In this document: piece after piece, positions 31,852-33,593 of the stretch
Position numbering within the stretch: the stretch's first letter is position 1
Layout of the letters: every line of letters starts with the position of its first letter
Assembly (NCBI GenBank): GCA_020073145.1
Contig: JAIQFS010000017.1
Location: 1 to 64,000, forward strand
Source: Terriglobia bacterium
Lineage (GTDB): Bacteria > Acidobacteriota > Terriglobia > Bryobacterales > Bryobacteraceae
Length of the DNA: 64,000 nt
Direction: 5' to 3'
Notes under the pieces: model-generated
Database searches by the model: none
Told to the model about the DNA's origin: nothing
The model's input: only the letters and a program-made list of their open reading frames with translations
Position numbers and translations under genes: made by a program

Positions 31852-32391
31852 CTAGAGAAGCTGTTCCATCACGTTGACCAGATATTCCTGGTCGAACGGG
31901 CCGGAGCGATAGGTGCGCGCATCGAAGAACCGCCACATCTTCTTCTCCTTTTCCAGCGTGTAGAAAAGCAGTTGCTCCTCGATCAGGTCCTTGTCGAGTA
32001 AGATCTGATTGAAGGCCCGTACCGACCCCTTCATCGTGTACGGGATGCGGAAGTCTTCAGTTGACACCAGGTCCGGAGCCGTGGCAAACTCGATCTGCAG
32101 AATCCGGCCGCGGGCGTTGACCTGGATCAGGTTCACGCCTTCTTCCCGCAGTGCCTCGGCGGAAAAATCCGGCGGGTCCAGGGTCACCTCGCTCCGAGAG
32201 AGCAACCGGTTGACCGAGGCCACAAAATCCGCGCAAATCGCATGCAGTTCCGTGGCGGCCCGGCGGCGCAGAGCGGCGATTTCGCGCGAGTGGTTCTCGC
32301 GCCGTTCATCCTTCTCCGCCAGGGCGTCAATGTTCTCGGCCAGGCGCTTCAGCCGCTTATCCCGGCCTAGCATTTGGTTTAACCGTGCCAA
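31852..32391 (-). CDS. Hypothetical protein, coiled-coil N-terminus
   Basis: A 179-residue soluble protein of unknown family. Residues 1-60 are strongly charged and predicted helical (KRLKRLAENIDALAEKDERR, then REIAALRRRAATELHA), and the rest is a compact alpha/beta region ending YLVNVMEQLL. No enzymatic motif is seen. It ends 6 bp from the receptor gene stop (convergent) and lies 53 bp after the XRE regulator on the same strand, so it may be controlled with it. Confidence 0.6.
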   Translation of the reverse strand: MARLNQMLGRDKRLKRLAENIDALAEKDERRENHSREIAALRRRAATELHAICADFVASVNRLLSRSEVTLDPPDFSAEALREEGVNLIQVNARGRILQIEFATAPDLVSTEDFRIPYTMKGSVRAFNQILLDKDLIEEQLLFYTLEKEKKMWRFFDARTYRSGPFDQEYLVNVMEQLL

Positions 32392-32444: not shown

Positions 32445-32681
32445 TCAGCGTACCCGCTCATCCGGTTGGATCAAGTCTCTCACGTCCAGGTGTAATCGGC
32501 GCAATACCTGATCCGCCATGGCCACCGAGAGTTGGCGTTTCCCTTTCAGAACATTGTGCAGGTGAGGCTGAGAGATTCCGGCCACTCGGGCCAACCCCCG
32601 CTCGGTGATTTCCCCGCTTTGCACCCGCTCTTGGAGGTTCCGGATCAGCCGGATTAGGAGGTGCTCGAAGTCTAATAGCAT
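32445..32681 (-). CDS. XRE-type helix-turn-helix regulator
   Basis: A 78-residue protein consisting almost only of a Cro/C1-type helix-turn-helix: ITERGLARVAGISQPHLHNV followed by LKGKRQLSVAMADQVLRRL. It lacks any sensor domain, like small prophage or antitoxin-type regulators. No good ribosome-binding site precedes the ATG at 32681. The 277-bp region upstream is AT-rich for this genome and holds an inverted repeat (32735-32753) that could be its operator, shared with the divergent Cys-cluster gene. Confidence 0.8.
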   Translation of the reverse strand: MLLDFEHLLIRLIRNLQERVQSGEITERGLARVAGISQPHLHNVLKGKRQLSVAMADQVLRRLHLDVRDLIQPDERVR

Positions 32682-32734
32682 GGCGGGTATATTTCTTCCA
32701 GGAATAGAGGAGTACCAGATCTCTTTCCACGGAA

Positions 32735-32753
32735 AAAAATCTTACCGATTTTT
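32735..32753. promoter_or_regulatory. AT-rich inverted repeat, candidate operator
   Basis: AAAAATC (32735-32741) and GATTTTT (32747-32753) form a perfect 7-bp inverted repeat with a 5-bp centre, 54 bp upstream of the XRE gene and facing the Cys-cluster gene. Such A/T-flanked palindromes are typical binding sites of XRE dimers; binding here is inferred. Confidence 0.4.
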
Positions 32754-32824
32754 GGGCCCTTTTATGTTGCAGTTCCGCCGCACCCAACCCATATAGGACA
32801 TTTACCTTACCACACTGTTCTTTC

Positions 32825-32832
32825 GTACTAGG
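32825..32832. other. CCTAGTAC box, copy 3 (GTACTAGG)
   Basis: CGTACTAGGACC at 32824-32835, 28 bp before a perfect TATAAT (32860-32865) that faces the Cys-cluster gene. If that TATAAT is used, the box would centre near -44, a common activator position. Confidence 0.3.
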
Positions 32833-32859
32833 ACCTACGGTAGGGCTGAACGGCCCAGT

Positions 32860-32865
32860 TATAAT
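32860..32865 (+). promoter_or_regulatory. TATAAT -10 element before the Cys-cluster gene
   Basis: A perfect TATAAT. No good -35 hexamer is seen 16-18 bp upstream, so activation may be needed; the GTACTAGG box lies just beyond the -35 position. Confidence 0.35.
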
Positions 32866-32958
32866 CTTGACGATTTTCTTATCCGAGATAGAGTCAATTC
32901 AGTTGTTGTGGCGACTGCCGAAATGGATTCGGTTGCCGCCAGGAGGACATTCTCTACA

Positions 32959-33531
32959 ATGCAGTGGGATCGAACGAACACGATAGGATTGGCCAAAGTC
33001 TCCTGTTCCTATTGTCACGGATACGGCCTTCGGCTTATCCGAAAGGGCAAAGAAATACCCTGCGACTGCGTCTTCCGCGCGGTCTTTCGAGCCTGCCATC
33101 ATCGTTTCCGGGAGTGCGTCGAAAAAGGGCCGCACACCAGCACGGTCACGCTGGAGTTCTGTCGTGGCACCGAAGGCCGCCGCACCTATTCCCGCAAGCG
33201 AGAGGAATTCATGGCTGACTTCTGTCTAGTGAGTCGGCGCTCGCTCGACGATGTCGAGTATCGCATCTTCCGCTTCCACTTCCTGCTTGGGGCGGACTGG
33301 AAACTCTGCTGCCGTCAACTCCGCATGGACCGCGGCTCTTTCTTTCACCTGGTTTACCGGATTCAACAGAAGCTGGGCCAGGCCTTTGTCGAACTCCAGC
33401 CTTATGCTCTCTATCCTCTCGATGAGTACTTCAGTGGCATGATCCGGCGCGAGCCCCCGCGCGCCTTTCACCCCACTCCGTCACGACACCTGCCAGAACC
33501 TCTGGCGACCCCACTGCCCCTCTCGGCCTAG
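32959..33531 (+). CDS. Cys-cluster protein with possible helix-turn-helix, unknown family
   Basis: A 190-residue protein I do not recognise. Near the N-terminus is CSYCHGYGLRLIRKGKEIPC, whose CxxCxGxG resembles a DnaJ-type zinc knuckle, then CDC and CHHRFREC. A helical region follows (DWKLCCRQLRMDRGSFFHLV then YRIQQKLGQAF) with the look of a helix-turn-helix of sigma region 4 type, then YALYPLDEYF. The tail is proline-rich. The ATG at 32959 has AGGAGG 12 bp upstream; GTG at 32908 or ATG at 32923 are alternatives. It is divergent from the XRE gene and ends in a perfect terminator. DNA binding is an inference. Confidence 0.62.
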   Translation: MQWDRTNTIGLAKVSCSYCHGYGLRLIRKGKEIPCDCVFRAVFRACHHRFRECVEKGPHTSTVTLEFCRGTEGRRTYSRKREEFMADFCLVSRRSLDDVEYRIFRFHFLLGADWKLCCRQLRMDRGSFFHLVYRIQQKLGQAFVELQPYALYPLDEYFSGMIRREPPRAFHPTPSRHLPEPLATPLPLSA

Positions 33532-33535
33532 CATG

Positions 33536-33562
33536 CCGGGGAACAGCCGAGCTGTTCCCCGG
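33536..33562 (+). terminator. Intrinsic terminator after the Cys-cluster gene
   Basis: A perfect 12-bp stem, CCGGGGAACAGC (33536-33547) with GCTGTTCCCCGG (33551-33562), a 3-base loop, then TTTCTT. It begins 5 bases after the stop codon and is the strongest terminator seen in the window. Confidence 0.85.
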
Positions 33563-33593
33563 TTTCTTCCCGTACAATAGGGAATCCAACGGC

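Follow-up and report, generated by a model that had tools for sequence, protein, structure and literature searches.

A cysteine-knuckle protein encoded beside an XRE regulator in one Acidobacteriota family and its relatives in phages

A gene encoding a protein with a four-cysteine knuckle (Cys gene and Cys protein in the following) is a core gene of one Acidobacteriota family, and relatives of this gene are found in phages. In a genome of this family, it is encoded divergently to a gene for an XRE regulator within a window of 64,000 nucleotides, the whole stretch of DNA that was analysed. On balance, and with moderate confidence, the two genes are best read as a family-core chromosomal regulatory locus whose Cys protein is a transcription regulator that has been captured repeatedly by phages, probably for late transcription. 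Conserved intergenic sequences, structure models, the distribution of both genes, and a tree of host and phage copies bear on this reading and on several less probable ones.

Layout of the locus and conserved intergenic sequences

The XRE gene (32445..32681, minus strand) and the Cys gene (32959..33531, plus strand) are separated by 277 bp. As had been claimed in an earlier note on this DNA, the locus is an AT-rich patch, with a GC fraction of 0.51 vs. about 0.6 in the surroundings, and the XRE protein is indeed minimal, consisting of 78 amino acids that match the XRE/lambda-type helix-turn-helix family PF01381 with 23.2 bits (cut-off 23). Downstream of the XRE gene and on the same strand, a 179-aa protein without significant family match is encoded (31852..32391, minus strand), relatives of which were found near XRE in 31 loci, the window's two included.

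An XRE gene on the minus strand, divergent to the Cys gene, is present in 75 of 80 loci. Four of the five exceptions (L042, L043, L063, and L073) begin less than 400 bp from the end of the locus; the fifth is L052, which like L003 retains the Cys gene without XRE. With an XRE profile at E 1e-12, matches were obtained in 179 of 237 family genomes and in 117 of the 148 good ones, compared to 146 of these 148 for the Cys gene. Thus, the two genes do occur together elsewhere, which had been proposed as a check, but no XRE was detected in part of the genomes bearing the Cys gene.

The intergenic regions between XRE and Cys gene were compared in a set of 75 loci, the window included. In front of the XRE start, the palindrome TATTTC-N5-GAAATA is found exactly in 34 and with one mismatch in 23 of these regions, whereas shuffled sequences yielded 0 and 0. 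The window copy TATTTCTTCCAGGAATA (32690..32706, no strand), which the earlier note does not mention, has one mismatch and is located directly 5' of the XRE start codon. Judged from the position and conservation of this predicted operator, XRE looks most likely autoregulated and would, as a shortened CI-like repressor, repress its own promoter. Between the operator and the Cys promoter there are about 160 bp, and this position gives no hint of direct repression of the Cys gene. The motif AGTACT is present in 23 of the 75 regions compared to 2.3 expected, often a few bases past the operator and also elsewhere in the intergenic region; the window has AGTACC a few bases past the operator (32711-32716).

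It is unlikely that XRE and the Cys gene simply adjoin each other without being functionally linked, with XRE regulating itself and perhaps the 179-aa gene or distant sites. A conserved palindrome at the XRE start rather than at the Cys promoter would agree with such an independence, as would the persistence of the Cys gene where XRE was lost, but the divergent pair has been kept in those 75 loci despite differing outer genes.

Exact copies of the operator palindrome occur in 101 of the 237 family genomes, once in 83 of them, compared to 9 genomes for the reversed control (own count); the window's own genome has zero exact copies. Among the 75 sites listed from 58 genomes, 38 are located within 400 bp of XRE or the Cys gene, 28 are elsewhere, and for 9 no placement was possible, so that the exact pattern is not confined to XRE. 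XRE is present in 26 of the 30 operator loci that were kept, these loci being the first of a list and not a random draw. Ten of the sites elsewhere were inspected. Seven lie within long reading frames, four of these in a gene resembling that for cytochrome oxidase subunit II (by eye), and these seven copies look like chance. The remaining three (L214 1535, L215 1508, and L216 1561) are from one genus, are intergenic, and have the flanking G of real operators; they may be real distant targets of XRE. These copies are away from XRE and less than 1 kb from another helix-turn-helix-like reading frame. Seven further sites elsewhere are found in a single genome (G410), of which the one inspected is beside a recombinase-like gene: a perfect copy at the end of a contig (L178 119-135) adjoins a serine-recombinase-like gene. 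The same palindrome is found near several contig ends of this genome, which suggests a repeated element.

The Cys gene is preceded by a probable promoter (32867..32894, plus strand) consisting of TTGACG, 16 bases, and TAGAGT. TTGAC is found in 55 of the 75 intergenic regions and is lacking in 20, and it is mostly followed by a TAnnnT hexamer after 16 bases. The TATAAT box named in the earlier note is present (32860..32865, plus strand), but it is located just 5' of the −35 hexamer of this conserved promoter and is therefore probably not a −10 element. A leader hairpin (32910..32940, plus strand) immediately precedes the ribosome-binding site AGGAGG (32941..32946, plus strand), which is part of a GGAGGACATTC-type leader that recurs in relatives. 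The hairpin has a z of −3.3 in the window, and the family mean is −1.15 (n=79 leaders) vs. −0.14 for control genes (n=150). A search of RNA families returned a single sub-threshold match to an enterovirus element, which was taken as chance, and tRNA genes were not found in the window.

Two further elements had been regarded as parts of a switch. The AAAAATC/GATTTTT palindrome does exist as the perfect inverted repeat AAAAATC-TTACC-GATTTTT (32735..32753, no strand), but it was rejected as an operator and is probably a chance repeat that is not conserved. Of 1000 dinucleotide shuffles of the intergenic region (277 bp), 57 contain a repeat of this kind. The palindrome is missing from three genomes of the same genus that retain an operator and a TTGAC promoter, and among the 75 intergenic regions a similar one is found only in the window and in L060. 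No perfect hairpin found in the window is stronger than the terminator-like one directly 3' of the Cys gene (33535..33563, plus strand; −25.8 kcal/mol, z −5.7), which had been described as the strongest terminator, although its T run is poor and it is absent from the output of the terminator scan. The small switch that had been suggested is a fair reading as far as a two-gene regulatory locus is meant, but not with the named palindrome as its operator.

Predicted folds of the XRE and Cys proteins

The window XRE ends after the helix-turn-helix and has no C-terminal S24-like domain, whereas 30 of the 75 relatives are long. The model of one long relative, L037 (pLDDT 90.9), has the CI/LexA fold with a helix-turn-helix and an S24-like domain; its best match among solved structures is the lambda-186 hybrid repressor, and LexA was also matched. 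In Pfam, S24 matches 7 of 27 long XREs with a best E of 0.00049, and L037 reaches 14.2 bits vs. a cut-off of 23.3. The active-site serine of LexA-like S24 domains is visible by eye in 2 of the 27 (L017 and L078) and missing in 25. The window XRE, being without this domain, does not have the Ser-Lys dyad of RecA-stimulated self-cleavage. The window XRE is a short form of a CI-like repressor: it shares the XRE helix-turn-helix with repressors of the CI/LexA type such as lambda CI, 186 CI, and LexA, from which the window copy differs in stopping after this domain and most long copies in the missing serine.

The Cys protein consists of 190 amino acids from the conserved start ATG 32959 and contains, as had been noticed from the sequence, a CxxCxGxG motif. 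This is part of the knuckle CxxCxGxG-x11-CxC formed by C16, C19, C35, and C37, which are invariant in 81 of 81 host rows. L026, whose reading frame is broken, L004, found on the minus strand of its locus, and the weak L005 are not part of these rows. In phages, these cysteines are present in 54 to 55 of 60 rows. The knuckle is probably metal-binding. The last residue of the protein (window codon 33526-33528) is Ala in 80 of 81 host proteins vs. 77 of 560 other genes, an excess whose p-value is overstated by the relatedness of the host rows, and 36 of 64 phage copies end on Ala vs. 129 of 520 other genes, the tail being otherwise variable. A terminal Ala after a variable tail is possibly a protease signal.

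The protein had been called unrecognised, and this description stands, as no match was obtained in Pfam, NCBIfam, or PHROG; a known housekeeping family, for which a check had been suggested, was not found either. Searches of 64 members against Pfam gave only weak hints, including Sigma70_r4_2 in five members with a best E of 0.018, and no family of sigma region 2, the part that recognises the −10 element and binds the core enzyme, was among these matches. A search of solved structures with the Cys sequence gave none. The possible helix-turn-helix of the earlier note is predicted in the AlphaFold2 model, which has a mean pLDDT of 79.6 and values of 96 to 97 for residues 91-140. Alignments of about 60 to 77 residues link the C-terminal half of the model to region 4 of numerous sigma factors, with VIA Z scores of 7 to 8, a range that VIA's own note calls common, and 3vfz superimposes with 1.3 A over 62 residues of this half. 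Sigma-region-4 chains dominate the structure matches, the matched chains spanning mainly residues 58-149 of the model. For solved structures, Foldseek gave weak E-values (best 0.32), and only one viral match is strong, the uncharacterised phage protein A0A6J5LCE3 (E 6e-10). The C-terminal half is thus predicted to form a sigma-region-4-like helix-turn-helix, and from this predicted fold the Cys protein would most likely act at the −35 region or on RNA polymerase.

Like the Cys family, WhiB-like proteins also have phage copies, e.g. that of TM4. WhiB-like proteins bind a 4Fe-4S cluster through four cysteines, and four conserved cysteines are present in the Cys protein, too. In Actinobacteria, WhiB-like proteins contact region 4 of sigma (PMC6282962). 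They resemble the Cys protein in being a family of one lineage with a cysteine cluster and a transcription role linked to sigma region 4; in contrast, WhiB contacts sigma region 4, whereas the Cys protein is itself predicted to resemble region 4, and the sequences differ. No WhiB family was among the Pfam matches of the 64 members. Ltr, RinA, or ArpU families were likewise not among these matches or among the PHROG matches of the window protein; a distant kinship is possible. RinA and ArpU are relatives of the Ltr late regulators. Ltr proteins are late transcription regulators of Gram-positive phages (PMC13123087), and they share with the phage-borne Cys proteins the character of a small phage regulator encoded beside late or packaging genes. 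Unlike Ltr, the Cys protein has the four-cysteine knuckle and a counterpart in the host core genome.

Distribution and exchange between hosts and phages

In profile searches, the Cys gene was found in 224 of the 237 genomes of the window's family, in 146 of the 148 good-quality ones, and in 75 of 76 genera. It is nearly always single-copy, 22 of the 237 genomes listing two or three Cys matches (own count). A sample of the phylum comprised 396 genomes, 3 from the window's family and 393 outside. Outside the family, the single-sequence search matched one genome (E 3e-4) and the profile search one different genome (E 0.0075), both weakly. The Cys gene also has recurring neighbours in many relatives, namely a glyA-like gene in 31 and a glycosyltransferase-like gene in 36 of 80 loci (identified by eye); those of the window itself are different. 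With presence near-universal rather than patchy and with these recurring neighbours, a mobile element or prophage at this site was rejected, and the mobile-element origin considered in the earlier note is not supported for the locus.

Relatives of the Cys protein are encoded on 75 viral contigs, most of which are without known host. The underlying scan required GADWKLC or RGxFFHx[VIL]YR, so that the full conservation of the latter motif in the phage rows is partly built in. Dropping 11 near-duplicate loci left 64 rows, and dropping 4 further fragments left 60. Relatives of XRE were not found in any of the 75 viral loci as fetched, with up to 5 kb on each side. Among named phages, the only match had an E of 0.7, and plasmids gave none. 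A DNA site shared with the hosts was sought, but the TTGACG and AGTACT motifs of the host intergenic regions are not enriched beside the phage genes.

After removal of near-duplicates, 34 of 39 upstream and 50 of 60 downstream neighbours were compared with PHROGs. The nearest long upstream gene matches the large terminase subunit (phrog_2) in 15 of 34 cases, and the 50 downstream neighbours include 9 with a match to a head-tail adaptor, 8 to terminase (phrog_2), and 5 to a portal family (phrog_145). For nine phage copies that are host-like, all ten neighbours that were scanned singly match a terminase, portal, or head-tail adaptor, the terminase matches of L098 being weak. In prophages of two family genomes (G628 and G520), both among the 22 with more than one Cys match, the Cys gene is located directly downstream of TerL, so that phages of this kind can be linked to the host family. 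From this frequent position beside terminase and portal genes, the phage copies would most likely control late transcription.

In one phage locus (L145 2658-3200, by eye), TerL is flanked by a sigma-factor-like gene immediately upstream and by the Cys relative immediately downstream. The window's own genome contains a prophage-like region with the gene order TerS-TerL-portal (L203 5270-5869 on G000:C86, by eye), in which no Cys relative was found above noise; a NusG-like gene (by eye) is located some way upstream of its terminase genes.

The same position, often immediately adjacent to genes for terminase and portal or sandwiched between them, would also be expected if the phage protein were a packaging factor such as a terminase partner, the host copy having another, derived role. 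We consider this very improbable, as the Cys gene is a core gene in the hosts, no terminase is among its recurring neighbours there, and the structure matches are dominated by sigma-region-4 chains.

The relationship of host and phage copies was analysed with a careful, unrooted tree of 59 rows (42 host and 17 phage), which were picked to span the host clades and to include phage copies near host ones. At least eight changes of the host/phage label are forced by well-supported branches, none of 200 bootstrap trees contains a single host group, and a single host clade is rejected (AU p 7e-6). In a quick tree of 141 rows, 13 changes were counted, at least 7 of them forced. The careful tree has 12 label changes; shuffling of the labels gave 14.9, and 25 of 500 shuffles were as low. 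The rows being hand-picked, this indicates only a thorough mixing of the labels within this selection. With a host gene that is core and almost always present as a single copy, repeated capture by phages is the simple reading, and gene position and tree together suggest that phages took the regulator gene repeatedly and without the repressor. The longest branches of the quick tree are phage rows, so that an older phage origin of the family is possible.

Little probability is given to a role of the host protein as an anti-phage or superinfection factor, with its copies in phages serving as decoys or counter-defence. Repeated phage capture and family-wide retention could be explained in this way, but no direct evidence speaks for it, the phage copies are surrounded by packaging genes, and in most of them the metal knuckle and the helix-turn-helix have been retained.

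Known parallels and significance

Regulator families shared between hosts and phages have been described before. PMC10462132 and PMC9437464 report XRE factors common to Caulobacter and phage phiCbK and the reading of host CtrA by phages of Alphaproteobacteria, respectively. Both cases resemble the present one in that a host regulator family is shared with, or used by, phages. They involve other families, and in the present case the shared Cys gene is found amid packaging genes while XRE is the part unseen in phages.

For Pseudomonas aeruginosa, PMC12796719 describes PrtR/PrtN and AlpR/AlpA, in each of which a LexA-like repressor is combined with a small activator or antiterminator. The two genes of the locus would be a comparable pair, but no repressor site was found at the activator promoter and no target cluster is known here. 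A domesticated prophage switch of this type, in which XRE would restrain a Cys activator of a lysis, bacteriocin, or gene-transfer programme, is decidedly unlikely. It would account for an activator-like gene adjoining a long XRE relative with CI/LexA fold, and for the packaging genes adjoining phage relatives of the activator. However, the operator lies away from the Cys promoter, the window XRE is without a cleavable domain, and the LexA-like serine is seen by eye in only 2 of 27 long XREs. Furthermore, TerL of one such phage (L145) was found in only 13 of the 237 genomes, and by this one probe no universal phage-derived cluster was seen; the same count led to the rejection of a universal gene-transfer-agent cluster under the control of the Cys protein.

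In the literature covered on late regulators, repressor-activator pairs, phage regulators of Acidobacteria, and phage regulators shared with hosts, with subscription journals mostly outside the coverage, a description of the Cys family was not found. Each aspect of the locus has known parallels, and as far as tested their combination is new.

Beyond the preferred reading of a family-core regulator captured by phages, a broader one is put forward as tentative and rather doubtful. The Cys protein may found a lineage-specific class of metal-knuckle regulators directed at RNA polymerase, an acidobacterial counterpart of WhiB, that perhaps originated in phages as a late regulator, was domesticated along with a CI-like repressor, and has repeatedly been recaptured by phages for their own late transcription.

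For this abundant group of soil bacteria, knowledge of transcription control is, as far as we are aware, sparse. If the preferred reading is true, the host transcription machinery would have a control point at this core regulator, which is kept nearly family-wide and was recaptured by phages. The Cys gene is a marker both of the family's genomes and of the packaging region in its probable phages, and thereby offers access to the phages of a group from which few hosts have been cultured.
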